This document shows, one piece after another, positions 7,491 to 58,398 of a stretch of 64,000 bases of DNA (its first letter is position 1; each line of letters opens with the position of its first letter). A program made the position numbers and the translations under genes. The stretch spans positions 1 through 64,000 of the forward strand of contig JAFGIX010000027.1 of assembly GCA_016929395.1 (NCBI GenBank), given 5' to 3'. The notes under the pieces were generated by a model. It saw only the letters and a list, made by a program, of their open reading frames with translations. It searched no databases and was not told the origin of the DNA. This DNA is from Candidatus Zymogenus saltonus (GTDB taxonomy: Bacteria > Desulfobacterota > Zymogenia > Zymogenales > Zymogenaceae).

Positions 7491-7706
7491 TTAAGCGGAT
7501 GCGCTCTTGTTCAGCTCGTCCAGGATGAAATCCACGTCGAGGCCGTGCACCGCGGCCCCCTCCCCTATCGACTCCATCCTCGATGCAGGACATGCAAAGC
7601 ACCCGCCCTGGAAATGCTTCTTGATTACCTCCTCGGTTTCCGGGTACTTCTTCAAGACCTCGAATATAGTCATATCCGACGTTATTTTCTTTTCCGTGTT
7701 TCCCAT
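7491..7706 (-). CDS. DUF1858 (hybrid-cluster-protein-associated) small redox-disulfide protein
   Basis: The 71-aa protein has the DUF1858/prismane-associated pattern. A KITSDMTIFEVLKKYPE segment is followed by GGCFACPAS with two cysteines spaced CxxC, then a helical tail DVDFILDELNK. The family is thought to be a small thiol redox or metal protein and often stands alone in anaerobes. The ATG at 7706 is chosen because AAGGAG lies nine bases upstream; an in-frame TTG three codons earlier falls inside that ribosome site. It is divergent from the MMPL transporter gene. Confidence 0.85.
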   Translation of the reverse strand: MGNTEKKITSDMTIFEVLKKYPETEEVIKKHFQGGCFACPASRMESIGEGAAVHGLDVDFILDELNKSASA

Positions 7707-7897
7707 TGAAATCAACTCCTTTTTAAAGAAAGTTCCTTTATGTATAAGTTATAATGGTCTACTGTTTTTGTCAAGTAATTTGTTGGGCTCTTTTCACTTT
7801 TTGTGGATAAAATTAGAGAAAAGGAGGCCGCACATTTTATACACGATTTATTTTGTAAAGATATTTTCAAAAAGGGGCCAAAAAGCCCTGTTTCGAC

Positions 7898-7926
7898 TTG
7901 ACTTTGTACAATAGACTCTATATAAA
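7898..7926 (+). promoter_or_regulatory. Predicted sigma-70 promoter of the MMPL transporter
   Basis: TTGACT (7898-7903), a 17-bp spacer and TATAAA (7921-7926) make a near-consensus promoter about 105 bp upstream of the GTG start at 8032. The rest of the 7707-8031 gap, between divergent genes, holds no gene that I can see. Confidence 0.6.
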
Positions 7927-8031
7927 GGGGCTTTAAAATTGATCGGTCAAAACGACCGTCCCCAGGGGAGATCGCCCCGATAATGCAGCGGCTCCCTCTT
8001 TATTTATTGGAGACTCAGAGGTATTCGTCGA

Positions 8032-10623
8032 GTGGAAAAGGGCCAGCTTATCAAAAAGAGACACGCGCTTTACAGGCGCCTGGCGGTCCTCGTGACCGAC
8101 CACCCCATGATCGTCATCGGCCTTGTCTCTTTGATAACGGTTTTCTTTGCGATCAACATCTTCAGGCTCAAGATAGATCCCGACCCCTGGAAGATGCTGC
8201 CCCAGGACGACCCGGCCGTCATCTACTGGGAGGAGGTCGAGGAGCTGTTCGGCAGGTCCGACGCGGCGATCGTTGCCGTTGTGTCTCCGGGCACGATCTA
8301 CAACGAAACCTCCCTCGGGAAGATCGAAGCCCTCACCGAGATGATGGAGAAGCTGATCGTTGTTGACGAAAAGGATTTGGAGACGATCGAGGAGCTTATC
8401 GAAGAGACGGACGGCGAGGTGAAGGAGCTTCTGTCGAAGGTCCCTGAAGGCGGCCTAACGAAATCGGACATTGGCCCTGTCAAGAACGCCCTCAGGATTC
8501 TCAGGGCGGAAGACGACCCCGACGAGGGGCTCATTGAGGAGCTTGAGGGTATCAGGATCGGCCTCGAGCCCTTCAAGGAAGTGATGAGCCTTTCCACGGT
8601 CGAGAACATCGAAAGCATAGGCGGCGTGCTTGACACCGGCCCGATTATGGAGGATGTCCCTGAGACGTTTAATGATATTAAGCTTTTGAGGGACAAGATT
8701 CTCGGCAACGATATGCTCGCCAAAAAGATCGTCTCGGAAGACGAAACGGCCACGATCATCTTTACCAACCTCACGTTCACCAGCCACGAAGAGAGGACCA
8801 TAGCCATCTACAAGGCCCTAAAGGATATGGCTGTCAAGCTGGGCGGGCCCGAAGAGTACTACGTCTCAGGAACTCCCATGATATTGGGCCGCGAGGCGAG
8901 CTACATGAAGGACGACATGTCTCTTCTGATCCCCGCCGTCATCCTGCTGATAATGGTGATACTATTTGTAGTCTTCAGGAACCTGAGGGGGATGGTAACC
9001 CCTTTGCTCGTCGTGCTGATCAGCACGATATGGACGATGGGGCTCATGGCGATCCTCGGCTATTCGATCTCTATCATATCCACCACCCTGCCGGTAATAC
9101 TCGTGGCCATAGGGTGCGCCGACGGGATACACATCATCACCGAATTCTACGGGAGGCTCTCCGGGGGGGGCAAAAAGCGGGATGCGATGGTGGACACCAT
9201 GGAGGAAATATCGTCTCCCGTGATTATGACTTCGCTCACCAGCATGGCCGGGTTCGGGTCTCTTGTGACGTCGAGCCTGAGCCCCATCCGGGAGTTCGGC
9301 GCGTTTACCGCCTTCGGCATCTTAGCCGCCATGATCTTTTCTCTGATTTTCATCCCCGCCATGATGATGATATTGAAGACTCCGCCGAAGCTCGGCATGG
9401 CCGTTGACAGGAACCACAGCACAACTCCCCTTACAAGCTTTTTGGATACATTGGGGCGGGTATCGATCAACAGGCGCCGCTTAATCTTCGCCTTGATGAT
9501 CCCCGCCTTCATCGCGGTGATCTTCGTGGCCACAAGGGTGGAGGTCGGCTACGGATTCATGAACGACTTCAAGAAGAGAAGCGAGATCGTCATCGCGGAT
9601 GAGCTGATAAACGAGAAGTTTCCGGGAAGCACAAGCCTCAACATCATTATCGATTCCGGGGCGCCGGACGGCATCAAGGACCCCGATTTTTTAATGAGGG
9701 TCGAGAGGCTCCAAGATTATCTCGCTTCAGACGAACTTGTCGGATCGACGAGCTCCATAACCGATTTCTTAAGAAGGATGAACTACGTCATGAACGACAA
9801 CGATCCTAAGATGAACAGACTCCCTAATCCGACCGAGGAGATAACCGTAGAGGGAGAGGACGGAAAAACGGTAAAAGAGGTCATCAGCGGGCGGGACATG
9901 AACGCCCAGTACCTCCTCCTTTACGAGAACTCAGGGGGCGAGGACATGGAAAAAGTTGTCGACTTCGAGTACCGAAAGGTGAACCTGGTCATGCAGCTGA
10001 AATCCTCCTATTCCCGGGACATCATGCACCTCCAGAAGATGGCGGGGGAATTCATCGACGAGAATTTCGGCGATGGCGAGGAGGTCCACCTTACGGGCAC
10101 CGGTCACATGGTAGTGGTGATCTCCCACTACATCATAAAGAGCCAGATCATCAGCCTCGCGACCTCCCTTATCGTAGTCTTCCTGATGCTGGTTTTAGTC
10201 TTCAGGTCAATCAAGGCCGCCTCTTTTTCCATGCTTCCCCTAATCTTCACGATATTCTCCAACTTCACCCTTATGAGGATTTTCGATGTAAACCTCGATG
10301 TGGCCACCGCGATGATCGCGTCGATGGGGTTAGGAATAGGGATAGATTACTCGATCCACTTTGTATCGAGGTACAGGATAGAGACGGCAAAGGGGCTCGA
10401 CGTAAACGACGCCCTCTTCGAGACCATCCACAATACCGGGCGCGCCCTCGTCTTCAACGCCGTTGCCGTGGCGGCCGGCTTCATCATTCTCGTCCTTTCA
10501 AACTTCAAGCCGATCATGAACGTGGGCTGGCTGGTCTCCGCGACGATGATCATAAGCGCATCGGCGACCCTGATCATCATCCCCGCCCTTGTCTCCATCT
10601 TCAAGCTCGACGCGGGAAGGTAG
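8032..10623 (+). CDS. MMPL/RND-family membrane exporter
   Basis: The 863-aa protein has the duplicated RND/MMPL architecture. A transmembrane helix near residues 22-45 is followed by a large extracytoplasmic domain to about 295. A block of five or six helices (about 298-450) follows, then a second helix at about 480-500, a second extracytoplasmic domain and a final helix block (about 705-855). GxxxD-type segments (AIGCADGIHIITEF and GLGIGIDYSIHFVSRY) occur in the fourth helix of each half, where the proton-relay Asp sits in this family. It probably exports lipids or hydrophobic compounds using the proton gradient. Translation starts at a GTG preceded by AGAGGT. No periplasmic adaptor or outer-membrane partner is adjacent. 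Confidence 0.87.
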   Translation: MEKGQLIKKRHALYRRLAVLVTDHPMIVIGLVSLITVFFAINIFRLKIDPDPWKMLPQDDPAVIYWEEVEELFGRSDAAIVAVVSPGTIYNETSLGKIEALTEMMEKLIVVDEKDLETIEELIEETDGEVKELLSKVPEGGLTKSDIGPVKNALRILRAEDDPDEGLIEELEGIRIGLEPFKEVMSLSTVENIESIGGVLDTGPIMEDVPETFNDIKLLRDKILGNDMLAKKIVSEDETATIIFTNLTFTSHEERTIAIYKALKDMAVKLGGPEEYYVSGTPMILGREASYMKDDMSLLIPAVILLIMVILFVVFRNLRGMVTPLLVVLISTIWTMGLMAILGYSISIISTTLPVILVAIGCADGIHIITEFYGRLSGGGKKRDAMVDTMEEISSPVIMTSLTSMAGFGSLVTSSLSPIREFGAFTAFGILAAMIFSLIFIPAMMMILKTPPKLGMAVDRNHSTTPLTSFLDTLGRVSINRRRLIFALMIPAFIAVIFVATRVEVGYGFMNDFKKRSEIVIADELINEKFPGSTSLNIIIDSGAPDGIKDPDFLMRVERLQDYLASDELVGSTSSITDFLRRMNYVMNDNDPKMNRLPNPTEEITVEGEDGKTVKEVISGRDMNAQYLLLYENSGGEDMEKVVDFEYRKVNLVMQLKSSYSRDIMHLQKMAGEFIDENFGDGEEVHLTGTGHMVVVISHYIIKSQIISLATSLIVVFLMLVLVFRSIKAASFSMLPLIFTIFSNFTLMRIFDVNLDVATAMIASMGLGIGIDYSIHFVSRYRIETAKGLDVNDALFETIHNTGRALVFNAVAVAAGFIILVLSNFKPIMNVGWLVSATMIISASATLIIIPALVSIFKLDAGR

Positions 10624-10824
10624 CTGGTTAATCCCCCACTCCTACTGCTCCCCCCTACCACTATTGTTCATAATATACTACTTTTCGTTATTGCCTGCAC
10701 TGAAATCCTACAGGGGCCGTTATTTCCAACCGAGTCGGTTCGTTGAACCCGCCTTGCAGACCGGGTGGGTCGTTCGGTAGAGTCCACTTTTTCCCGTCTT
10801 GAACCATTTATCTTGATCTCCACC

Positions 10825-10853
10825 TTGAAATTTCAATTGATAATGGCTATATT
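10825..10853 (+). promoter_or_regulatory. Predicted promoter for xerC-hslV(-hslU)
   Basis: TTGAAA (10825-10830), 17 bp and TATATT (10848-10853) form a good sigma-70 match. Transcription would start near 10860. That argues against the upstream in-frame GTG (10856) as xerC start and favours the ATG at 10871 or 10880. Confidence 0.5.
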
Positions 10854-10870
10854 ATGTGTTAGCCTTGTCC

Positions 10871-11818
10871 ATGGACTCGATGAATGAGCGAAACGGTAAG
10901 AAAAACCCCATTGATCTCTTCTCCGAGTACCTGTCTCTCGAGAGGGGGGCGTCGCCCCACACGATCAGGAGTTACGTGAAAGACATCCGCCAGTTCGAGG
11001 ATTTTATAACCAGGGGCGAGGGGAAAGATAAATGCGGGGGGAAGCTGCTTAACGCCTCCCCGGACGATGTCCGGTCGTACCTCGGCTCGATCATCGGGAA
11101 AAGGGAGCGAAGCTCCGTATCGAGGAAGCTTTCCAGCCTGAGGACGTTTTACCGCTTCCTACTGAAGAGGGGTTTTATCGAGAGAAGCCCCGCCGCCGTC
11201 GTGTCCTACCCGAAGGGGGAGACGAAGCTCGTCGATTACCTGACCGTCGACGATGTCTTCAGGCTCATAGAGTCCGCCGGGGGGGAGGCGCCCTCGGACA
11301 GGCGCGACAGGGCGTTGCTCGAATTGCTCTACTCCACCGGCATAAGGGTGAGTGAGCTTGTTGGGCTTAATCTTTTGGACGTGGACTTTACGGAGTCGGT
11401 CCTCAAGGTGTCGGGCAAGGGGAAAAAGGAGCGGATCGTGCCGGCGGGGGCCCCGGCGCTGTCGTCATTGAAAGAATACCTGGGAGTCAGGAGCGGAGAC
11501 AACTTCGGAGACGCAAAAAAGCGGATCGACGACAAGGCCCTGTTCCTGAACATGCGCGGCGGCAGATTGACGGCAAGGAGCGTAAACCGGATCGTCAAAA
11601 AATATATCCTCTTGGGATCCCTGACGCTGAACGTCAGCCCCCACAAGCTGAGGCATGCCTTCGCCACCCACCTCCTCGAGATGGGGGCGGGCCTGAGGGA
11701 TATCCAGGAGCTTCTGGGACACGAGTCGATCGGCGCGACCCAGAAGTACACCCACGTCACGATAGACAGGCTGATGGAGGTCTACGACAAGGCCCATCCG
11801 AGGTCAAAAAGGAGCTGA
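10871..11818 (+). CDS. xerC: Tyrosine recombinase XerC
   Basis: The protein has about 315 aa, the usual length for XerC/XerD. The N-terminal SAM-like DNA-binding domain contains the SLERGASPHTIRSYVKDIRQ-type helix. The C-terminal catalytic domain shows the whole active-site set: Arg in STGIRVSEL, Lys in GKGKKER, His-x-x-Arg in HKLRHAFATH, His in LGHESI and the nucleophile Tyr in TQKYTHV. It resolves chromosome dimers at dif with XerD. Six bases separate it from hslV, an order (codV/xerC-hslV-hslU) conserved in many bacteria. The start is chosen downstream of the predicted promoter. Confidence 0.92.
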   Translation: MDSMNERNGKKNPIDLFSEYLSLERGASPHTIRSYVKDIRQFEDFITRGEGKDKCGGKLLNASPDDVRSYLGSIIGKRERSSVSRKLSSLRTFYRFLLKRGFIERSPAAVVSYPKGETKLVDYLTVDDVFRLIESAGGEAPSDRRDRALLELLYSTGIRVSELVGLNLLDVDFTESVLKVSGKGKKERIVPAGAPALSSLKEYLGVRSGDNFGDAKKRIDDKALFLNMRGGRLTARSVNRIVKKYILLGSLTLNVSPHKLRHAFATHLLEMGAGLRDIQELLGHESIGATQKYTHVTIDRLMEVYDKAHPRSKRS

Positions 11819-11824
11819 ACGTAT

Positions 11825-12409
11825 ATGAGAGACATTTACAGAGACCCTGCCATCACAGGGGAAAAAGGAGAGCCGGAAAACAGGATCAGGTCCACGACGA
11901 TCGTGGCCGTAAGGAAGGACGGCAAGGTGGCCATTGCGGGCGACGGCCAGGTGACGATGGGGGAGTCGATTGCCAAGGGGGGGGCAAAGAAGCTGAGACG
12001 CCTCTACGGCGGGAAGATAATCGCCGGATTCGCCGGCTCCACCGCCGACGCCTTCACCCTCTTCGAGCGCTTCGAGAGCAAGCTCGAGCAGTACAGCGGA
12101 AACCTCGTCAGGAGCGCCGTGGAGCTCACCAAGGACTGGAGAATGGACAAGTACCTTAGGCGGCTCGAGGCCCTACTCGTCGTTGCGGACAAGGAGACAT
12201 CGCTCGTCATCTCCGGGGGCGGGGACGTCCTGGAACCGGACGATGAGGTGATCGCCATCGGATCCGGCGGGGGGTATGCCCAGGCCGCCGCCAGGGCGCT
12301 GATCAAGCACTCGAAGCTCTCGGCGGAGGAGATCGCAGCCGAGTCGCTGAAGATCGCCGCCGGGATATGCATCTACACCAACGACAACATCCAGATCGAG
12401 GTGTTGTAA
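11825..12409 (+). CDS. hslV: ATP-dependent protease peptidase subunit HslV with N-terminal leader
   Basis: The 194-aa protein carries the HslV core [20 protein letters not shown] with the Thr-Thr that forms the N-terminal nucleophile in the HslUV (ClpQY) protease. The [14 protein letters not shown] motif and the C-terminal conserved segment are also present. In most bacteria Met directly precedes, or nearly precedes, the Thr. Here about 22 residues come before it, and no other start codon lies closer. AAGGAG lies 10 bases before the ATG, so the start looks real. A propeptide would have to be removed to expose the catalytic Thr. It follows xerC in an operon and is separated from hslU by a repeat array. 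Confidence 0.92.
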
Positions 12410-12428
12410 TTCTATAGACGGGGAAAAT

Positions 12429-12645
12429 GCCATCCCCTTGGAAAGCGGGGATCCAGTTTGATATTCACTGGATTCCCAGTCAAGCTGGGAATGACAGTAT
12501 AAACCCCAAGTCAAGTGGGGAATGACAGTACAGAAAAGCAATTATTTGTCATTCCCGCGCAAGCGGGAATCCAGATTGATATTCACTGGATTCCCAGTCA
12601 AGCTGGGAATGACAGAATAGATTCCCAATCGAATTGGGAATGACA
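12429..12645. repeat. Array of six palindromic REP-like hairpins between hslV and hslU
   Basis: About six imperfect inverted repeats sit at 12431-12454, 12468-12497, 12502-12528, 12548-12574, 12586-12615 and 12620-12645. They are of the form CATTCCC...GGGAATCCAG or its reverse, CTGGATTCCC...GGGAATGACAG. Stem centres differ (AGT/GCT, GCG/GCG, AAT/ATT) but remain complementary. The same family occurs at 4034-4051 and 49749-49945. No gene lies in the 305-bp gap. Confidence 0.85.
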
Positions 12646-12714
12646 GAACTAAAAAAATCAATGAGAAGAAATTTCTAAACTCTTTAAAGCAGACCTTTAT
12701 CACAGGAGAGACCA

Positions 12715-14157
12715 ATGCAGACCTTTACGCCCCGGGAGATAGTCTCGGAGCTTGACAGATACATCATAGGCCAGAATAAGGCGAAGAGGGCCGTTGCAAT
12801 AGCGTTGAGGAACCGCTGGCGCAGGATGCGCGTCCCGGAGGAACTGAGGGACGAGATTGCGCCGAAGAACATCATCATGATCGGCCCCACCGGGGTGGGA
12901 AAGACCGAGATTGCCAGGAGGCTCGCCAAGCTCTCCCAGGCGCCATTCCTGAAGGTCGAGGCCTCCAAGTTCACAGAAGTGGGATACGTCGGCAGGGACG
13001 TGGAGTCGATGATCAGGGACCTGGTCGAGCTCGCCGTCAACATGGTCAGGGCCGAGGAGATGGAAAAGGTGAAGGTGAAGGCGGAAGAGCTGGCCGAGGA
13101 GAAGATCCTCGACATTCTGCTGCCCAAGAGGAGGGCGCCCGAGGGGAAGCCCGATCTGGGCTTCACCCCGCCGGATTCCGGCGACGACGACACCGAGGAC
13201 GCCGAAGCCGGCAGGTTTGAATTAGTGGGAGAGGAAACCCAGCCCCCCCAGCTCGGCTCCGGCGACGCGAACAGCTACGAAAAGACGCGCGAGAAGCTCA
13301 AAAAACTCCTGAGAGAGGGAAAGCTGGACGACCGCCAGCTGGAGCTGGAGACCCGCGAGCGGAATATCCCGATGGTGGAGATATTTTCCGCCTCCGGCAT
13401 CGAGGAGATGGACATAAACATCAAGGACATGTTCGGAAACCTCTTCCCCGGGAAAACCAAGAAGAAGAAGGTTAAGGTAAAGGAGGCCCAGAACATCATC
13501 GCCGCCGAGGAGGCCCAGAGGCTCGTAGATATGGACAAGGTAGTGGGCCTTGCCGTAAAAAAGGTGGAGGAGTCGGGGATCATCTTCCTGGACGAGATAG
13601 ACAAGATAGCCGGGAGGGAGAGCGCCCACGGCCCGGACGTATCGAGGGAGGGGGTCCAGCGGGACATCCTCCCCATCGTCGAGGGGTCGTCGATAAACAC
13701 CAAGTACGGGATAGTCAAGACCGATCATATCCTCTTCATCGCCGCAGGGGCCTTTCATGTATCGAAGCCCTCCGACCTTATTCCTGAGCTTCAGGGGAGG
13801 TTCCCCTTAAGGGTCGAGCTTGATTCTCTTGACAAAAACGACTTCGTCAAGATACTCACCGAGCCTAAGAACGCCCTGATCACCCAGTATATGGCCCTAA
13901 TGGAGACGGAGTCGGTGACCCTCCAGTTCAACGACGACGCTATAGACGAGATCGCCCGAATGGCGGCGCAGGTGAACGAGAGGAGCGAAAACATCGGCGC
14001 CAGGAGGCTCCACACGATCCTCGAAAAGCTCCTGGACGAGGTCTCCTTCAAGGCGCCTGAGCTTTCCAAGAAAAAGATAAAGATCGACAGGGAGTACGTT
14101 CAGGAGAAGCTGAAGGACATCATCGAGGACCAGGATTTGAGCAAGTATATCCTGTAG
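12715..14157 (+). CDS. hslU: ATP-dependent protease ATPase subunit HslU
   Basis: This AAA+ unfoldase has 480 aa and partners HslV. It begins with the characteristic [21 protein letters not shown]. The Walker A is GPTGVGKTE (residues 62-70) and the Walker B is IIFLDEID. Sensor-region GRFPLRVEL and [17 protein letters not shown] follow, and the C-terminus DLSKYIL docks into HslV. The inserted I-domain (about 110-245) is longer and more acidic than in Escherichia coli HslU (443 aa), which accounts for the extra length. A ribosome site, AGGAGAG, lies just upstream of the ATG. The REP array in the preceding gap may affect relative expression of hslV and hslU. Confidence 0.95.
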
Positions 14158-46877: not shown

Positions 46878-47675
46878 ATGAAGCCGACCCTGCCAAGAAA
46901 CACGATAATCTGCGGTGACTGCGAGGAAGTCCTTCGCTCCTTTCCCGACAACAGCGTCGATCTGATCGTCACCTCGCCCCCCTACGCCGACAGCAGGAGG
47001 AACACCTACGGGGGCGTTCATCCCGACAGATATGTGGAATGGTTTCTGCCCAAGTCGGAGGATTTCCTAAGGGTGCTGACCGAAACGGGGACCTTCATCT
47101 TGAATATCAAGGAGCGTGTCGCAAACGGCGAACGGCACACCTACGTGATCGAGCTCATCCTCAAGATGAGGAAGCAGGGATGGCTCTGGACGGAGGAATA
47201 CATCTGGCACAAGAAGAACTGTTTCCCCGGCAAATGGCCCAACCGCTTCAGGGACGCCTGGGAGAGACTTCTCCAGTTCAACAAAAATAAGCAGTTCAAG
47301 ATGTTTCAGGAAGAGGTCATGGTCCCCATGGGGGATTGGGCGAAGACGAGACTGAACAATCTTAGCGAGACGGACAAAACAAGGGATGAATCAAAGGTGG
47401 AAAGCGGCTTCGGGAAGAACATCTCCAATTGGGTCGGGAGGGAGATGGCCTATCCCACAAACGTCCTCCACCTCGCCACCGAGTGCGCCAACAGAAGCCA
47501 CAGCGCAACCTTCCCTTACGCCCTTCCCGAATGGTTTATCAAGCTGTTCACTGAAGTGGGCGACGTCGTATTGGACCCGTTTCTGGGCTCCGGCTCCACG
47601 GCGGTCGCCGCAAAGAGGCTGGGGAGATCATACATAGGGATCGATATCGACGAGGAGTACTGCAGGCTGGCTTAG
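46878..47675 (+). CDS. Type II DNA methyltransferase (N4-cytosine/N6-adenine, beta class)
   Basis: The 265-aa enzyme has the catalytic motif IV TSPPYADS near residue 34. The AdoMet-binding motif I, LDPFLGSGSTAVAAKRLGR, is near the C-terminus; this order (IV before I) marks the beta class. It methylates an exocyclic amino group of a base in a short site. A restriction-endonuclease gene follows 41 bp downstream but is frameshifted, so the enzyme may act now as an orphan methylase. The target sequence cannot be deduced. Confidence 0.88.
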   Translation: MKPTLPRNTIICGDCEEVLRSFPDNSVDLIVTSPPYADSRRNTYGGVHPDRYVEWFLPKSEDFLRVLTETGTFILNIKERVANGERHTYVIELILKMRKQGWLWTEEYIWHKKNCFPGKWPNRFRDAWERLLQFNKNKQFKMFQEEVMVPMGDWAKTRLNNLSETDKTRDESKVESGFGKNISNWVGREMAYPTNVLHLATECANRSHSATFPYALPEWFIKLFTEVGDVVLDPFLGSGSTAVAAKRLGRSYIGIDIDEEYCRLA

Positions 47676-47716
47676 GAGGAGCTGGGCAAAAATGAATTGA
47701 AGCAGAGCAGACTGCT

Positions 47717-48456
47717 ATGAAAAAATTTTCTCTGGAAAAGGTTAATGAATTTGTTAACGATAATATTGTTATATTCCACAACAACAAAATCAAATCGCTA
47801 CAATCTTTAAACTTAAAAAGCATATTGAGGAAGAAAAATCCCTACCTGTTTAAAGCGAAGAATATCGGAATCGCTTCCGAACTTATAAAAAGCACTCTTG
47901 ATGCCTTTCTATCCTCCTCCGAAGAAAAGCTTTTCGGTGACTTCCTTGAGGAACTTGCTATTTTCATTGCAGGTGAAACCTGCGATGGTCAGAAGTCAGC
48001 CGCCACCGGTGTGGACTTGGAGTTTTTCAATAATGATATTCATCATCTCGTCTCCATAAAGTCTGGGTCCAATTGGGGAAACAGCTCACAACATCGGAAA
48101 CAGGATGAAGATTTTAGAAAAGCTTTACAAGTTCTGAAGCAATCAAAACAAAAATAAATACTCAAGCCGTTCTCGGTATATGCTACGGACGAGTAAAAAC
48201 AAGTTTCGTAAGGAGTTATATGAAGGTTGTCGGCCAGAATTTCTGGTATTTAATAAGCGAAAACCAGAACCTATATACGGATATTGTAGAGCCACTGGGT
48301 TACAGGGCAAAGCAATATAACGATGACTTTGTTAAGCAAAAGGATAGGGTTTTAAATATATTCACTGAGGAGTTTATCAAGGATTTTTGTGATAACGGCG
48401 AGATCAACTGGAAAAAACTCGTCGAGTTCAACAGCGGAAATCTCGACCTGACGTGA
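47717..48456 (+). pseudogene. Type II restriction endonuclease (PmeII-like), single-base frameshift
   Basis: Two reading frames, 47717-48157 and one continuing from 48155 to 48456, together encode one protein of about 246 aa. The first carries a nuclease core GVDLEF, HHLVSIKSGSNWGNSSQ, which resembles the family I remember as PmeII-type enzymes. It stops right after an A5 run at 48150-48154. With one more A the frame reads on through INTQAVLGICYGR and joins the second part, which ends near NSGNLDLT. The gene is A+T-rich and sits just after its methyltransferase. It is either inactivated, subject to slippage, or affected by an assembly error. Confidence 0.8.
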
Positions 48457-49960: not shown

Positions 49961-51334
49961 TTACCTGTTCAAATCCCTCAGCGCAGAGACGACGGAGACG
50001 ATGTGGTTGAGCTCTTTGAAGACCGGCACCCCCGCCCCCTCGAAATTCCTCTTGAACTTTTCAAAGGAGGGGATAAATCCGAACATCCAGGTCAAGACGG
50101 GCTTTTTCGTCTCCATCATCGCCCTTTCGAAAATCCCCGTATCGATATTCTCCGTTATCGGGGAGGCGAAGGGGAGGAGTATCACGGCATCGATATTTTC
50201 ATCCGCCATAACTACGGGCACCACCATCTCCAACGCCTCGTTGATCCCCCTTATCTCCATGGTGGGCCAGATATCCACCGGATTTTTCGGGGGCATCCAC
50301 GGGGGGAATATCTCCTGGAGCCTTGCCGTAGTCTCACGGGTAAGCTCCGGCACGTCGATCCCCCTGTCGTTTAATAGGTCTGCCGTAACGATCCCGGCGC
50401 CGCCGCTGATGGTGATTATCCCGATCCTCTTCCCGCCGTTCCACGTCGGCAGTAGCGACAGCGCCCTTCCCACGTTCATCATATCTATAAAGCCGCACAC
50501 CCGGGCGACGCCTGCCTGGTTGAGCGCCCCTGCTATCAGCCCGTCGTCTCCCGCAAGGGAGCCGGTGTGGGAGAGGGCAGCGTTTACCGCCACGGGGCTT
50601 CTACCCCCCTTCAAAAGCACGATCGCCTTTTTACCCTTCAGCCTTTCCGCAACCTCTAAGAACTCCCTCCCCCGGTTTATAGATTCCAGATACATCAGGA
50701 TGATCCCGGTCGTGTCCTCCCCGGCCAGGTACTCCAGGATGTCCACCTCGTCGACGTCCATCTTATTGCCGATGGCGGCCGCCTTGTCTATGCCGAAGTA
50801 GTTGCTGTCCAGGACCTGTACCAAAAAGCCGGCCGCCAGCATCCCGGTCTGGGTTACGATGCTGACATTGCCTTTAACCAATTTCTCGCCGAGGTTCATA
50901 ACCGGCATGAAAGGGGCGAAGAAGAGATTGTCGGAGTTAACGGAGCCGGTGCAGTTGGGGCCCCATATCCGAATGCCGTTCTCTTTTGCGATCTTCATCA
51001 CCCGGTCTGCGAGCAGCTTTCCATCGTCTCCCGTCTCGGCGAAGCCCGCCGCCTGGATCTGCACCCGCTTTATGCCCAAAGAGGCGCTCTCCTCGACGAT
51101 CGCAGGAATGGTTACCGCCGGTGTGAAGATGATGACGAGTTCCACGATTTCCGGAAGCTCCGAGACGGAGGGGTAGACCTTGTGGCCGTCGATCTCGGTG
51201 TAGTTTGGATTTACCGGATATACCCTGTCGTTGTAGTAGGAGACAAGGTTGTTAAAAATATGGTAGCCCCCCTTCATCTTGTTTCCCGTGGCCCCCACCA
51301 CGGCAACGCTCTCGGGGGCGAAAAAACTTTTCAT
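49961..51334 (-). CDS. ADP-forming acyl-CoA/acetyl-CoA synthetase, alpha-type subunit
   Basis: The 457-aa protein has an N-terminal CoA-binding Rossmann domain (VAVVGATGNKMKGG) and a GIKRVQIQAAGFAETGDDGK segment. A second, succinyl-CoA-ligase-like domain carries NAALSHTGSLAGDDGL, in which the His is phosphorylated in this enzyme class. There is no ATP-grasp domain, so a separate beta subunit would be needed, and none is in the window. It would convert acyl-CoA and ADP to acid and ATP, as in fermenting or syntrophic anaerobes. It is the sole gene between two repeat-rich gaps. Confidence 0.83.
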   Translation of the reverse strand: MKSFFAPESVAVVGATGNKMKGGYHIFNNLVSYYNDRVYPVNPNYTEIDGHKVYPSVSELPEIVELVIIFTPAVTIPAIVEESASLGIKRVQIQAAGFAETGDDGKLLADRVMKIAKENGIRIWGPNCTGSVNSDNLFFAPFMPVMNLGEKLVKGNVSIVTQTGMLAAGFLVQVLDSNYFGIDKAAAIGNKMDVDEVDILEYLAGEDTTGIILMYLESINRGREFLEVAERLKGKKAIVLLKGGRSPVAVNAALSHTGSLAGDDGLIAGALNQAGVARVCGFIDMMNVGRALSLLPTWNGGKRIGIITISGGAGIVTADLLNDRGIDVPELTRETTARLQEIFPPWMPPKNPVDIWPTMEIRGINEALEMVVPVVMADENIDAVILLPFASPITENIDTGIFERAMMETKKPVLTWMFGFIPSFEKFKRNFEGAGVPVFKELNHIVSVVSALRDLNR

Positions 51335-51555: not shown

Positions 51556-52116
51556 ATGGATTTAATACCGGAGCTTCGACTGGGACTTGTAAACGGCTGG
51601 TGGTTCTCCTCCGCGTACCTTTTGATCAACGGGGCGGTCATGGCGTTAATCCCCAGGGAGGCCGCCAGGCGCCTGACAACGCACCCGTCAAAGAATCTAT
51701 TTGAAAAGATTTTCTTGACAATCCAGATGATCCTCTTTTTCGGGACCATCGTATTTGCGATATTTGTGCCGGTGAAGCCGGGCACAGTCTGGTTCTGGTC
51801 GGGGCTATCGGTCTTCGTTATCGGGATGGCCGCCTATGTAGTCTCGATGTTTAATTTCGCCAAGGCGCCAATGGACAAGCCCGCCTTAAATGGGCTGTAC
51901 CGCATCTCCCGAAATCCGATCCACGTATTTTCCTTTGTAGCATGGATCGGGATCGGGATCGCCGCAGCCTCCTGGATTATCCTTTCCGCCACCGTAATAG
52001 TGCAGATAATGATGCACAAAACGACCCTGGAGGAGGAGAGATTCTGCCTCGAGGCGTACGGCGACTCATACCGCAAATACATGAAAGAGGTTCCCCGCTA
52101 TCTCCTCTTTTTCTGA
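51556..52116 (+). CDS. Isoprenylcysteine carboxyl methyltransferase/PEMT-like membrane protein
   Basis: The 186-aa protein has about five membrane helices. Its C-terminal signature is GLYRISRNPIHVFSFVAWIG, followed by LEEERFCLEAYGDSYRKYMKEVPRYLLFF. The R-NP and E-E-R-F residues form the AdoMet site of this membrane methyltransferase superfamily. Bacterial members methylate lipids or small molecules, not prenylated proteins. It lies 15 bp upstream of the AraC/ABC chimera. The acceptor is unknown. The start is set by AGAGGTG nine bases upstream. Confidence 0.82.
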   Translation: MDLIPELRLGLVNGWWFSSAYLLINGAVMALIPREAARRLTTHPSKNLFEKIFLTIQMILFFGTIVFAIFVPVKPGTVWFWSGLSVFVIGMAAYVVSMFNFAKAPMDKPALNGLYRISRNPIHVFSFVAWIGIGIAAASWIILSATVIVQIMMHKTTLEEERFCLEAYGDSYRKYMKEVPRYLLFF

Positions 52117-52131
52117 GGCCCGATTTAATCT

Positions 52132-53136
52132 ATGAAGGCTATGGGGATGGATAAAATCAAGGACAACGACAGGTCGAAATTCCTTCGAGACGAGTACATC
52201 TCTCGGATAAACCGCGTTGTCGACTACATCGAGCTTAATATCGACAAGGACCTCTCCCTCGAAAAGCTGGCCTCTGTCGCTAACTTCTCCCGCTTTCACT
52301 TCCACCGGATATTCAAGGCGATCATGGGCGAGACCCTGAACCGGCACATACAGAGGATCCGGGTCGAGAAGGCGGCCGTACAGCTCATCAATAATCCTAA
52401 GAAGACGATCACCGAGATCGCCTTCGACTGCGGCTTCTCCGGGTCGGCTCCGTTCGCCAGGGCCTTCAAGGATTTTTTCAAGATGAACGCCAGCCGGTGG
52501 CGCCGGACGGGGAACCTCTACGAGGGCAATATTGGTAAAATCGACAGCAATAAGGGTAAAGCGATAAGCAAGATTCGGCAAGACTTCGGCGTCTTCTCAT
52601 CGATCATCGCCTCCAAGATCGTCGCAAAGGAGATCGAGGAGAACACTATAGACATCCTCCTTTCGTGCCCGATAACGAGGGCGGGGTTAATCCTGATCAG
52701 GCTTATCGCCGCGGCGATTATACTGGCGCTGGCGACCCTCCTGACGTTCGCCTTCACGATAATCGGGCTCGTCATCCTCGGGATGCCGGTGAGGCTCGAC
52801 ATCCTCGCCGCCGCCTTCCTCTCCGGATTTCTCCTCTGCCTTGCCTTCGGCTCCGTCTCGCTCCTCGTCTCGGTTTTTATCCCCCAGCAGAACTACACCC
52901 TCTTCATCACGATCGGGATAATGTTTGCCATGTTTGCCTACGAGGAGCTTTTGATAAAGGTGATCTCGTTTCTGGAGTATCTCCCGTTCTTGAGCCTCTT
53001 CCACTTCTACAGGCCGGGCGAGATATTGATCCACGGCTCGATCTCGGCGGCAAATCCCCTTATCCTGTTGGGATACTTCGCCCTGTTCTCCCTAATTGCC
53101 GTGGCGCTCTTCAAGGGGAAGGACATTCCCGTGTAA
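52132..53136 (+). CDS. Chimera of AraC-type regulator and ABC-2 permease C-terminal half
   Basis: Residues about 20-130 are an AraC-family DNA-binding domain: SRINRVVDYIELNIDKDLSL, then FSRFHFHRIFKAIMGET and ITEIAFDCGFSGSAPFARAFKDFF. After KAISKIRQDF (residue about 152) the sequence changes abruptly. It becomes KEIEENTIDILLSCPITRAG followed by five membrane helices, the C-terminal half of an ABC-2 permease. AraC proteins of this kind usually end in a GyrI-like domain, and permeases of this kind begin with about 100 residues that are missing here. The junction near 52580-52592 is in frame with no stop. A deletion fusion, or an assembly join, is the simplest explanation. Confidence 0.75.
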   Translation: MKAMGMDKIKDNDRSKFLRDEYISRINRVVDYIELNIDKDLSLEKLASVANFSRFHFHRIFKAIMGETLNRHIQRIRVEKAAVQLINNPKKTITEIAFDCGFSGSAPFARAFKDFFKMNASRWRRTGNLYEGNIGKIDSNKGKAISKIRQDFGVFSSIIASKIVAKEIEENTIDILLSCPITRAGLILIRLIAAAIILALATLLTFAFTIIGLVILGMPVRLDILAAAFLSGFLLCLAFGSVSLLVSVFIPQQNYTLFITIGIMFAMFAYEELLIKVISFLEYLPFLSLFHFYRPGEILIHGSISAANPLILLGYFALFSLIAVALFKGKDIPV

Positions 53137-53397: not shown

Positions 53398-53931
53398 CTA
53401 CACCTCCATCTCCATGAACGTGACCGTAAACGGCAGATGGTCAAACCTCTTTCTCCCCTTCACCCGAAAGCCCCACCCCTCGTACCAATGCTGAAGCTCG
53501 GCCTGCTCCGATATAATTCCGATCTCGACCCGATGCGCCCCGAGCGCCACCGCCTCATCGACGGCGCGGCCGAGCAGGAGACCCCCGGCGCCCCTTTTCC
53601 TGAATTCAGGAAGGACGGAAAGCCTCTCGGCGTAGAAGACGCCCGGCGATTTCCCCGATTCCTCGAGGGCGACGGTACCTATCGCGTTATCCCCATCCTC
53701 CAAGATAAAAAAGGCGGTCCCCTTTTCCATCGCCCCCCTTATCTTCTCCTCGGTCATGTACGCCGGGTGCGTCGGGGTGTTTTCTTTGGTCAGACCGAAC
53801 CTGTCCGCCACGTCTATAAACGACCTTCGGATGATCGACGTAATGAGGGAAACGTCATCTGTCGTCGCCCCCCGGATTTCGCAATTTTCAAGCCCCATAC
53901 TACATCCCATTTCACCTATTTCATATTTCAA
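53398..53931 (-). CDS. GNAT-family N-acetyltransferase
   Basis: The protein (up to 177 aa) has the GNAT core: NCEIRGATTDDVSLITSIIRRSF, FFILEDGDNAIGTVALEE, and the acetyl-CoA loop VLPEFRKRGAGGLLLGRAVDEA with its R/Q-x-x-G-x-G/A pattern. AELQHWYEGWGFRVKGR follows. The acceptor amine is unknown. The start is uncertain: ATGs at 53931, 53910 and 53898 are in frame, and the last (MGLENCEIRG) is closest to the fold. The region between it and the chimera (53137-53397) has a GGGGGC hairpin at 53260-53275 and no gene. Confidence 0.82.
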   Translation of the reverse strand: MKYEIGEMGCSMGLENCEIRGATTDDVSLITSIIRRSFIDVADRFGLTKENTPTHPAYMTEEKIRGAMEKGTAFFILEDGDNAIGTVALEESGKSPGVFYAERLSVLPEFRKRGAGGLLLGRAVDEAVALGAHRVEIGIISEQAELQHWYEGWGFRVKGRKRFDHLPFTVTFMEMEV

Positions 53932-53992: not shown

Positions 53993-56431
53993 CTACCTCC
54001 CGCTCTCCAAGAACCGCCTCGGGTCGACCTCCCCCCCCTCGTAGAGGATATCCGCCAGCACCTCGACGATGGGGAGCCTCACATCGTATTTCTCAGATAG
54101 CTTTACCGCCGCCCCGACAGCGCTGTAGCCCTCCACGTTCTTCTTCTCCTCCTTGAAGCGCCTCAGGGCGAAGGGTGCCGACCACTTGGTCAGTGACCTC
54201 CCGAACTGGCTGTTCCTCCCCCCCTGGGCCGTGGCCAGAAAGTCGGCCATCCACGCCTGTCCCTCCGGGCCGAAAGTTTCTTCGTCCGCCCCCATTGCCA
54301 GTGCGAGGGTTTTTATCTCTGCAGATATTCTGGTGACGAGAGTAGAGGTGAAGTTGACGGAAACCTCCTTCGACCCCGCCGAGATGCCGTAGGCGATGGC
54401 GTAGACGTTCTTCATGGCGGCGGCGAGCTGCGTGCCGACGAGGTCACGGCTTAAGTGAACGATGAAGTTGGGAGTCTCCAAAAGCTCCTTGAGATTCAGC
54501 GCCAGCTCCTCGTTTTCGGCGGCGAGCTGAGTGGCGGTTATCTGCCCGCTGATGATCTCATCGGCGAGGTTCGCGCCGGAGACCACCGCAAGCCTTATGT
54601 CGTCCTTCCTGACTCTCTTCTCCAGCTCCTCCCAGACGACCTCGACGGGAAGGAGCGCCGTCTCCACCTCGAATCCCTTCGTGGCGATCAGGAGATCGAA
54701 GGGGTCGGGGTTGGCGTCCAAAACGGCGGTTATGGCCTTTCTGAAGTAGTGGGACGGGGTCACGATCAGCACGAGATCTGCCTTTCTCACCGCAGACTTC
54801 AGGTCGGACTCCACGTGAACCACCTTCGGAAGCGTATACCCCTTGAAGAAGGTCGGGTGCTGACGCTCCTCCGCGATCGCCTCGACAAGGCCGGGCCTTG
54901 CGTCGTAGAGGATCAGGCCGTAATCTGTGTACTCGGGATTATTGTCGAATTTTCTCCCTAAATGAACGGCAAGCGTATATCCGAAGGCACCGGCGTTTAT
55001 GACGGTCACGTTCTCCTCCGCCTTCAGGGGGTATACCCTGTGGTCGGCCTGATTTGCGTAGAAGAGGCCCAGCTTCAAATCCCTTATCCAGTACCTCTTT
55101 CTGAATCCGGCCGTGGAGGAGACTATCTTTCTCTTCAAAAATGGCTTCAACCCCTCCTCGATAACCCTATCCATCCCCAAGGAGAAGGTCGAATCGAGGT
55201 ACGGGTCCCTCTTGTACCTCTCCCGATAAAATTCCGTTATCTGTTCCAGCTCCTCCTCGGCGGAGTGCTTCAGCTCCCTTACCGAGAGGATCTCCCTGCC
55301 GTAGAGGGACTTCGCCACCAGGTGGGTCGGGAGCACCATCTTGTTCTTCGCCACCCCCTCGAGGACCGTCCTCCCTATGACGTCCCCCGGAGCCACGCTC
55401 TCCTTCAGGTCACCTATGAGGTCTTTAACGTTAAACGGCTCCCCCATCGTCACAAACGCCCTCCCGTAGACCCCCTCCATCCCATCGAAAACGGCCGACA
55501 AGAGCCTCGAGAAATATCCCCGCCCGAACCTCACATACTCGCCCACCGGGATATCCACCGCCCTGTCTCTTAAGGTCACAAATCCGCTCAAGGGGCTCCT
55601 GTGGGTGAGGGAGCGGTCTTCCGGAACTCGAGAGAGGGAAAGCGAGAGGGGAACCACGGTGACATCCCCCTCCGTCTTCAAGAGGGCTTCCACAATCCAG
55701 TCCGGAACCGCGGCCCGAAGGGAGCCGTCGATGCTCCTGGTGGTGTAGCGGGAGGCTTCCGCATGAACCACGAGGGAGGCCCCGATCTCGAGGAGCGCCC
55801 TCAGATATGCCGCGAGGACTCCCTCGTAGGCCTTTCTGGCCGGGCTCCAGAGGAGCTTCTTTGTTACCTTTACTATCTTGAGATTTTTGAGCTCCTCCTC
55901 GATCTCCTGATTCGGGATTAACAGGTCCCCCAGGGCCGAAAAGGGAAGGCCCAGCCCCAGTGAGTCCAAAAAGACGTTTATCACAACGCTGTCGAGATGG
56001 GAGTTATAGCTCGGCAGGTAAAGGACGCCCCCCTTGGCCCCCTTTATCTTATCCAAAATATCCGCCCCTCTCCCTTCGGGGGAAAAGGGTCTTTCGGGAT
56101 CCGGGTGGGAAAAAAGGTACTTGGAAAGAAAATATGCGACTCTTCGGGCTCTTAGGTGTATGGCGGGATCGTAGCCCGCCAGTGTGTCCTCAAGGGCTTC
56201 GGCGGCGTCAAAGGTGAATTTGTAATAATATTCCAAATAATAGACGCCCGCATCCTTGAGGTATTTTTCGGCAAGATCGAAGGCCCTCTCCCCCTCGTCC
56301 CCCCTCTCTTCCACCATCGGTCCTATATTTTTCGTCAGGATGGGATACTCGTCCCTCCCCTCAAAGAAACTGAAAATCTCGTCCGCCGAGAGCCTCTTTA
56401 AGAGGAGTCTTATCAGGGGGTGTTGGGACAT
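53993..56431 (-). CDS. PlsB-like acyltransferase fused to NAD(P)-dependent glycerol-3-phosphate dehydrogenase
   Basis: The 812-aa protein joins an N-terminal glycerol-phosphate acyltransferase-like domain (to about residue 470) to a C-terminal GpsA domain. The latter has VINAGAFGYTLAVHL as its nucleotide-binding start, then LVLIVTPSHYFRKA, LIATKGFEVET, VVSGANLADEI with the catalytic-Lys region VGTQLAAAMKNVYAIAYGI, and TAQGGRNSQFGR. The two activities, dihydroxyacetone-phosphate reduction and glycerol-3-phosphate acylation, are consecutive phospholipid steps. In the acyltransferase the usual H-x4-D motif reads SYNSHLDS, so the first His is replaced by Tyr. The gene begins 12 bp after the universal stress protein gene. 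Confidence 0.85.
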   Translation of the reverse strand: MSQHPLIRLLLKRLSADEIFSFFEGRDEYPILTKNIGPMVEERGDEGERAFDLAEKYLKDAGVYYLEYYYKFTFDAAEALEDTLAGYDPAIHLRARRVAYFLSKYLFSHPDPERPFSPEGRGADILDKIKGAKGGVLYLPSYNSHLDSVVINVFLDSLGLGLPFSALGDLLIPNQEIEEELKNLKIVKVTKKLLWSPARKAYEGVLAAYLRALLEIGASLVVHAEASRYTTRSIDGSLRAAVPDWIVEALLKTEGDVTVVPLSLSLSRVPEDRSLTHRSPLSGFVTLRDRAVDIPVGEYVRFGRGYFSRLLSAVFDGMEGVYGRAFVTMGEPFNVKDLIGDLKESVAPGDVIGRTVLEGVAKNKMVLPTHLVAKSLYGREILSVRELKHSAEEELEQITEFYRERYKRDPYLDSTFSLGMDRVIEEGLKPFLKRKIVSSTAGFRKRYWIRDLKLGLFYANQADHRVYPLKAEENVTVINAGAFGYTLAVHLGRKFDNNPEYTDYGLILYDARPGLVEAIAEERQHPTFFKGYTLPKVVHVESDLKSAVRKADLVLIVTPSHYFRKAITAVLDANPDPFDLLIATKGFEVETALLPVEVVWEELEKRVRKDDIRLAVVSGANLADEIISGQITATQLAAENEELALNLKELLETPNFIVHLSRDLVGTQLAAAMKNVYAIAYGISAGSKEVSVNFTSTLVTRISAEIKTLALAMGADEETFGPEGQAWMADFLATAQGGRNSQFGRSLTKWSAPFALRRFKEEKKNVEGYSAVGAAVKLSEKYDVRLPIVEVLADILYEGGEVDPRRFLESGR

Positions 56432-56443
56432 CGGAGTTTTTCC

Positions 56444-56881
56444 CTAACGGACCACCATCACGGGACACGGTGCGAGGTGAATGACCCTGTCCGCGACGCT
56501 CCCGATGAGGGGGCGGGTGGCGCCGCGCTTCCCGTGCGTCCCCATGACAATCAGGTCGACCTTGCTCTTCTTTGCGTAAGTCACGATCTCGTCGGCCGGA
56601 AATCCGGCCTTCAACACCTCGACGACCTTAACGTCGGCCTCCTTGGCTTGCTCCTTGGCGTCCCTGAAATACTTCCTCCCCTCCCCCTTCAGCTTTTCTA
56701 TAACCTCCTTCGACTCCAGCTTTCCCAGCCGCTTAAAGTTGTCGACCACGATCTCTGAAATTACGAATATCGTGTGCATCTCTGCGCCGAACTGTCCGCA
56801 CATGTCCACGGTGAGCTTGACCGCCTTGTTGGAGCAGCTCGAGCCGTCTACCGCAACGAGGATTCTCTTATATAAGGACAT
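56444..56881 (-). CDS. Universal stress protein
   Basis: The 145-aa protein has the UspA fold: YKRILVAVDGSSCSNKAVKL at the N-terminus and VMGTHGKRGATRPLIGSVADRVIHLAPCPVMVV with the ATP-binding G-x2-G-x9-G(S/T) pattern near the C-terminus. ATP-binding Usps form dimers and appear under growth arrest or energy stress. It is upstream of and probably co-transcribed with the PlsB-GpsA gene (12 bp gap). GGGGGAGTC lies upstream of the ATG. The A+T-rich region 56890-57100 must contain its promoter, but no single -35/-10 pair is decisive. Confidence 0.93.
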   Translation of the reverse strand: MSLYKRILVAVDGSSCSNKAVKLTVDMCGQFGAEMHTIFVISEIVVDNFKRLGKLESKEVIEKLKGEGRKYFRDAKEQAKEADVKVVEVLKAGFPADEIVTYAKKSKVDLIVMGTHGKRGATRPLIGSVADRVIHLAPCPVMVVR

Positions 56882-57177
56882 CTTTGACTCCCCCTTTTGA
56901 TATTATAAATCGGCTAAAATTGTAAAATGAGCGCTCAATAGATTTTACTTTGTATATAATAATATAGCACCAGATAAAAAGGTCAAGATAAAAGGTGTTT
57001 GGAGATTTAACGGGCTTGACGGCGATTTAACCAAAACACCCCGATCTATAAATTGTTGACAGCTTGACTATTCATCGAATAGTATGAGGCTTGACCGTTG
57101 GATCGATCCGCTTTAATACTAATACGAGAGCGGAGAACTAAGAAGATCTCTAAACTCTGCACGGCTGAAGGTAAACC

Positions 57178-58398
57178 ATGAAGGCGAGAATTAACAAAGG
57201 ACGCCTGAGAATTGCGGTTTTCATTTTCCTGCTTCTTGTCGTCTCCGCTGTATGGGCGGGGATCGATACTATCGGGGCCGAGCCCGGCGGGAGGGAGCTG
57301 AAGGTCAGGATTCTCGAAGGGAGGATCGAGGGGGATGCGGTCATTTCCTCAAACGGCCCTCTAACCGTATCCTTTAAGAGAAGAGAGATTGTAATCAAAA
57401 ACGAGAAGCTCCCTATCACCGCTTCGGAAGGCGGAAGACTTTCCTTGAAGTTTGGAAACGGGGAGCACAAGACGACGGGTGAGATCGAAATCAGGTCGAA
57501 GGGCGGAGCGCCCCTGACCATCGCCTCCGACCGAGGTGGAATGAAATCCCGCAGCTACAGGGGGCGGCTTCGCATTTACAACGACGGGGTCACGGTCGCC
57601 GTCATAAACATCGTTCCCGTAGAGGACTACCTATACTCGGTGGTGGCCTCCGAGATCTCCGCGCGGGAGCCGGAGGCGGTGAAAGCCCAGGCGATCCTCT
57701 CCCGGACGTACGTACTCGGAAACATGGGGAGGCACGGCGTTTACGACTTCTGCGACAAGACCCACTGCCAGCACTACGGCGGGGCGGGGGTCGAGACCGC
57801 CCTCTCGGTAAGGGCGGTCGACGAGACAAGAGGTCGCCTCCTTCTCTTTAATGGGAAGCCGGCCCGGGTTTTTTACCACGCCTGCTGCGGCGGCGTCACC
57901 ACCACACCGGCCCACGTCTGGGGGGGAGACGACCTCCCGTACCTCAAGCCGGTCGTGTGCAGGCTCCCCGGCCGCGGCGGCTATCTTTGCGGCGGGAGCG
58001 GGCACTTCAGGTGGGAGGCGAGGATCGACGGCGAGACAATGAGGACGCTTCTATCCGACTCATTCGGCGTTAAGGCAGAGGGCCTAAAAATAATTTCGAG
58101 GGATCCCTCCGGAAGGGTTGAAAAGATGGAGATAACGGGGCCTGAGGCCAGGGTGATCTCCGGGGAGGAGTTCAGGATCGCCGCAGGCAGGGCGCTGGGG
58201 TGGAGCACGATAAAGAGCGCCCTCTTCGAGATGGATATTTCCGGCGGTTACTATCTATTTAAGGGCCGCGGCCTAGGCCACGGCGTGGGGATGTGCCAGG
58301 AGGGGGCTATTCGGCTCTCGCGGCTGGGCCTGAACCACGAGGAGATCATCGAGTTTTACTTTCCCGGGGCGAAGGTGGGGGAGGCAAAAGATTGGTAA
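57178..58398 (+). CDS. SpoIID/LytB-domain protein
   Basis: The 406-aa protein has a signal peptide (hydrophobic residues 11-26), then a beta-rich region and the SpoIID domain. The domain runs from VEDYLYSVVASEISAREPEAVKAQAILSRTYVL through ACCGGVTTTPAHVWGG to GRGLGHGVGMCQEGAIRLSRLG. The Glu in VASEIS and the H-C-C residues are the conserved lytic features. SpoIID in endospore formers is a lytic transglycosylase of peptidoglycan; Gram-negative homologues act in the periplasm. It stands alone, and about 300 bp precedes it without a gene. Confidence 0.88.
   Translation: MKARINKGRLRIAVFIFLLLVVSAVWAGIDTIGAEPGGRELKVRILEGRIEGDAVISSNGPLTVSFKRREIVIKNEKLPITASEGGRLSLKFGNGEHKTTGEIEIRSKGGAPLTIASDRGGMKSRSYRGRLRIYNDGVTVAVINIVPVEDYLYSVVASEISAREPEAVKAQAILSRTYVLGNMGRHGVYDFCDKTHCQHYGGAGVETALSVRAVDETRGRLLLFNGKPARVFYHACCGGVTTTPAHVWGGDDLPYLKPVVCRLPGRGGYLCGGSGHFRWEARIDGETMRTLLSDSFGVKAEGLKIISRDPSGRVEKMEITGPEARVISGEEFRIAAGRALGWSTIKSALFEMDISGGYYLFKGRGLGHGVGMCQEGAIRLSRLGLNHEEIIEFYFPGAKVGEAKDW

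Follow-up and report, generated by a model that had tools for sequence, protein, structure and literature searches.

The open reading frame at 52132-53136 of the window, by which we mean the whole 64,000-nucleotide stretch analysed here, joins the DNA-binding part of a Rob-like AraC regulator in frame to the C-terminal two thirds of an ABC-2 permease. We believe that this chimera was probably made by a lineage-specific deletion or rearrangement and that it is best regarded as a young loss-of-function relic. The features on which this reading rests are the following.

51556-52116, forward strand: PEMT/isoprenylcysteine-methyltransferase-like gene, 186 aa (PF04191, 7e-10), ending 15 bp upstream of the fusion ORF
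52132-53136, forward strand: fusion ORF, 334 aa, ATG start, by ORF reading
52132-52587, forward strand: AraC (Rob/MarA-type) part, residues 1-152, complete two-HTH DNA-binding domain plus linker
52582-52602, forward strand: junction; AraC identity ends at F152 (52585-52587) to V154 and permease identity begins at G153 (52588)
52588-53133, forward strand: ABC-2 permease part, C-terminal two thirds, with the end of TM2, the cytoplasmic loop and TM3-TM6 (ABC2_membrane_2 match, hydropathy)
53398-53931, reverse strand: GNAT acetyltransferase gene (PF00583, 3.6e-12), convergent, downstream of and outside the fusion

The fusion ORF and its two parts

Pfam matches and alignments agree with an earlier note on this DNA that the protein switches from an AraC DNA-binding domain to the C-terminal region of an ABC-2 permease near codon 152, and the uninterrupted frame described there is borne out, as no internal stop occurs across the 334 codons. 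The AraC-type two-HTH DNA-binding domain, which is the defining feature of AraC/XylS (Rob-like) regulators, is present in the fusion: HTH_18 matches residues 46-125 (profile positions 1-79 of 80, E 1.5e-20) and HTH_AraC matches in two stretches. Its relatives in the PDB include MarA, SoxS and Rob, and we therefore assign it to the MarA/SoxS/Rob type. The linker at the end of the AraC part leads into a GyrI-like domain in relatives. Beyond it, ABC2_membrane_2 (PF12679) matches residues 152-332 (profile positions 78-283 of 283, E 2e-18), and both profile and alignments indicate that TM3-TM6 with the conserved loop of ABC-2 permeases have been kept, as have the conserved P and Q positions of the family.

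Both parts are real coding sequence, because their codon usage is host-like and the other forward frames at the locus have negative codon scores. The two parts score 0.42 and 0.57, respectively, as compared to 0.13-0.60 for 22 neighbouring genes, and have GC3 values of 0.77 and 0.83. Since a random join keeps the frame with a one-in-three chance, the in-frame state is by itself unremarkable. Seen in one genome, the lack of decay in the hybrid frame is compatible with a young join and with selection on the product alike.

Hydropathy predicts four TM segments in the fusion, whereas a full-length permease encoded by the same genome has six. As two segments, an even number, were lost, the DNA-binding domain at the N-terminus is expected to have stayed on the cytoplasmic side. 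The product, if made, is thus predicted to sit in the inner membrane with four TM helices, its DNA-binding domain being cytoplasmic and unable to sense a ligand. Modelled from its single sequence, the whole fusion gives a poor structure (pLDDT 54), and the fold of the permease part is moderate (pLDDT 73.5), with NosY (7o0z_D) as its top but weak fold match (E 0.03).

The junction

At the position of the join the AraC orthologs of three other genomes read KIR[QK]DFDVSSYYID, whereas the window reads KIRQDFGVFSS (KIRQDFGVFSSIIASKIVAKEIEENT). When scanned with Pfam, the orthologs of the AraC part run on into the GyrI-like domain. From the other side, residue 83 of a full-length permease of Natronococcus aligns with G153 and the alignment then continues through to the C-terminus. 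Because AraC identity ends and permease identity begins there, we place the join to within a few bases of 52588.

Comparison within the genus was with one other genome (G001), in which a PEMT gene is followed by an intact 335-aa AraC-GyrI gene, the same gene pair as in the window; the PEMT ortholog (locus L059, 4941-5501) is 73% identical, and the AraC-GyrI protein is 79% identical to the AraC part over residues 6-159. DNA homology between the two genomes extends from the PEMT gene through the AraC part (1.1 kb at 73%) and ends at 52598. Its last 17 bases (GACTTCGGCGTCTTCTC in comparison to GACTTCGACGTCTCCTC) contain two mismatches, a similarity with which a short microhomology at the breakpoint would possibly be compatible. 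The DNA of the AraC-GyrI linker (window 52514-52598 against L059) is 85% identical between the two genus members, which is above the 73% of the whole PEMT-AraC match. The junction sequence occurs once in the window, and the 201 bases around the join match the rest of the genome in stretches of only 16-30 bp with weak E-values.

Missing domains and partner gene

The earlier note had also held that the regulator's GyrI-like domain, the N-terminal half of the permease and its ATPase gene are missing, and had suggested looking for the lost domains elsewhere in the genome. The GyrI-like domain is indeed absent from the fusion ORF and, by family search, from the whole genome, which is 99.6% complete; the same search, run as a control, found matches in 8 of 14 control genomes, and the domain is present in the AraC orthologs of G001 and of the family member G003. 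An N-terminal piece of the permease is gone as well, but alignment to the Natronococcus permease shows this to be about the first third (~82 of 261 residues, TM1 and part of TM2) rather than half, and ABC2_membrane_2 profile positions 1-77 are accordingly absent from the fusion. The genome contains seven ABC2_membrane_2 matches including the fusion, and the other six include no N-terminal fragment by which it could be completed. With regard to the ATPase, none of the genome's 37 matches to PF00005 lies on the contig of the fusion (143.8 kb), in line with the earlier claim. As the Natronococcus permease gene lies directly behind its ATPase gene, such a gene has probably been lost here too. Taken together, the GyrI domain and the permease front appear to have been lost rather than displaced.

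Gene order and relatives

In G003, homologs of the CoA-ligase-like gene at 49961-51334 and of the GPAT/GpsA-like gene at 53993-56431 lie 360 bp from each other and enclose no further gene; in the window, the PEMT gene, the fusion and the GNAT gene lie between the two. In G001 the AraC-GyrI/PEMT pair adjoins hslU. When two G001 contigs (C11 and C300) are combined, the 8107-10623/xerC/hslVU group has GPAT/GpsA, Usp and SpoIID-like genes on its upstream side; this order, which depends on a single gene divided between two contig ends, differs from the order in the window. Because of this difference the region is, judged from gene order, rearranged within the genus. The GPAT/GpsA-Usp-SpoIID (53993-58398) and xerC/hslVU (7525-14157) groups are ~40 kb apart in the window, ~55 kb apart in G003 and seemingly adjacent in G001.

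A simple inversion between hslU and the fusion locus was considered and rejected: in the window, hslU is not flanked by the second junction, which would combine the GyrI half with the permease front, and the genome as a whole lacks GyrI.

The surroundings of the AraC relatives in five genomes (G392, G259, G078, G003 and G033) contain no homologous permease. Searches of 395 genomes of the phylum with the permease part and with the whole fusion found no other fusion covering both parts, and among 72,556 plasmid records no place covers 80% of the fusion. Thus, in related genomes, where the earlier note had proposed to look for the junction, we find the intact AraC-GyrI gene of G001 and no second fusion among the 395 genomes of the phylum. 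The closest permease relative within the family is 28% identical, those within the phylum are 24-32% identical, and residues 83-261 of the Natronococcus permease, which is encoded on a plasmid of this haloarchaeon, are 27% identical end to end with the permease part. Those permease relatives whose sequences were read have a TM1-TM2 region of their own at the N-terminus. The family, phylum and plasmid searches found no donor of the permease part.

Several further observations concern the surrounding genes. The ORF 53993-56431 encodes a protein of 812 aa. Its C-terminal half is a GpsA-like glycerol-3-phosphate dehydrogenase with both the N and the C domain of Pfam, whereas its first ~470 residues have no Pfam match at 1e-3 but look like a PlsB-type acyltransferase by reading (motif NSHLDS). 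Conservation of this long form in G003 and, to the limit of the contig, in G001 makes it a shared fusion, unlike the AraC one. At 46878-48456 a DNA methyltransferase-like ORF (TSPPYADSR motif) is followed by ORFs 47717-48157 and 48220-48456, which might represent a single restriction-endonuclease-like gene that was interrupted and is now in two pieces. Finally, G003 carries a second, degenerate AraC-like stretch with stops (L060, contig C9, 5940-6128) ~2.7 kb upstream of its intact AraC-GyrI gene.

Origin and fate of the chimera

How would such a gene have arisen? A deletion or rearrangement is suggested by the sharp point at which the two domains meet, the intact gene pair in the same genus, the absence of the missing pieces, the rearranged gene order and the lack of a second fusion. 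Its breakpoints would lie inside two genes, at AraC codon 152-154 and at permease codon ~83, so that codons 1-152 of a Rob-like AraC-GyrI gene would have been joined in frame to the permease from codon ~83 onward. By comparison with the relatives, the event would have removed the GyrI ligand-binding domain, the permease from TM1 to mid-TM2 and, if one existed, the ATPase gene. The gene still stands behind PEMT and has probably retained the transcription of that gene. The earlier note favoured a deletion joining two neighbouring genes: a join with loss of domains fits the intact AraC-GyrI gene of the same genus and the absence of the missing pieces, but the prior adjacency of the two genes is unsupported, given that five relatives have no permease nearby. 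We infer the state before the deletion, since no relative with the AraC gene beside a permease was found, and in view of the lack of a neighbouring permease in those five relatives, the lack of close permease kin and the differing gene order, a local deletion and a larger rearrangement are inseparable here.

Might the join instead be an artefact of assembly, with the AraC gene wrongly connected to a permease gene that belongs elsewhere or stems from a co-occurring strain? The genome is a draft of 92 contigs, gene order varies in this region among relatives, and AraC and permease genes lie side by side in no relative examined. We nevertheless regard a misjoin as unlikely, mainly because the missing pieces appear lost rather than displaced: it should have left the GyrI half and the permease front somewhere, and neither is found in the genome. 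Moreover, the join has no long repeat to confuse an assembler, the 16-30 bp matches elsewhere being weak, the codon usage of the permease part is that of the host's genes, and the flanking CoA-ligase-like and GPAT/GpsA-like genes are true neighbours in G003.

The chimera could also be an expressed and selected membrane-tethered regulator, born by gene fusion, in which ligand control was swapped for membrane control and the four-helix part anchors or senses while the AraC domain controls genes in the manner of CadC or ToxR. A complete MarA-like DNA-binding domain, an undecayed frame with host-like codon usage and, by hydropathy, an N-terminus that should remain cytoplasmic after loss of an even number of TM segments would all suit this proposal. 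In MarA and SoxS the AraC-type DNA-binding domain works without a ligand domain, and residual DNA binding by the fusion is therefore conceivable. However, the fusion occurs in one genome only and in no other among the 395 of the phylum, it has neither a sensor domain nor a partner gene, and a permease fragment without TM1 and ATPase is a poor candidate for a sensor. A literature search for membrane-anchored AraC proteins yielded nothing on point. We thus consider both a regulator of this kind and its origin by such a swap of control quite improbable. That the fusion continues to act as a permease-like protein, carrying its AraC part as a mere passenger, we find scarcely credible, for although four TM helices and the conserved permease positions are retained, TM1 and part of TM2 are gone and no ATPase is encoded nearby.

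On the favoured reading of a loss-of-function relic, the product would lack a ligand domain and have no partner nearby for energy coupling; control by the old ligand and transport would both be lost, and any leftover DNA binding would be unregulated or absent. As an accident, the fusion would be an ordinary example of how rearrangement creates a chimeric gene, caught before visible decay, whereas a functional product would mean that a regulator gained membrane anchoring in one step.

Comparison with known systems

With NosY and other ABC-2 permeases of the ABC2_membrane_2 type the fusion shares the C-terminal two thirds, the conserved loop and TM3-TM6, but it is without their ~82 N-terminal residues and without an ATPase gene. 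Its layout, predicted by hydropathy only, would resemble that of the ToxR/CadC-type activators in that an N-terminal cytoplasmic DNA-binding domain is followed by a membrane segment. It differs from these in having four TM helices and no periplasmic sensor domain, and the winged-helix (OmpR-type) domain of ToxR and CadC is not among its Pfam matches, its own domain being of the AraC type. Like MarA and SoxS, the fusion has an AraC DNA-binding domain without a ligand domain, yet those proteins are soluble, whereas here a membrane segment comes after the DNA-binding domain. Closest to its AraC part are the Rob-like AraC/XylS regulators (AraC HTH plus GyrI-like domain, as in E. coli Rob, 1d5y), whose full architecture is found in the relatives of the AraC gene: the fusion shares their N-terminal DNA-binding domain and linker, and membrane helices replace the GyrI-like domain.
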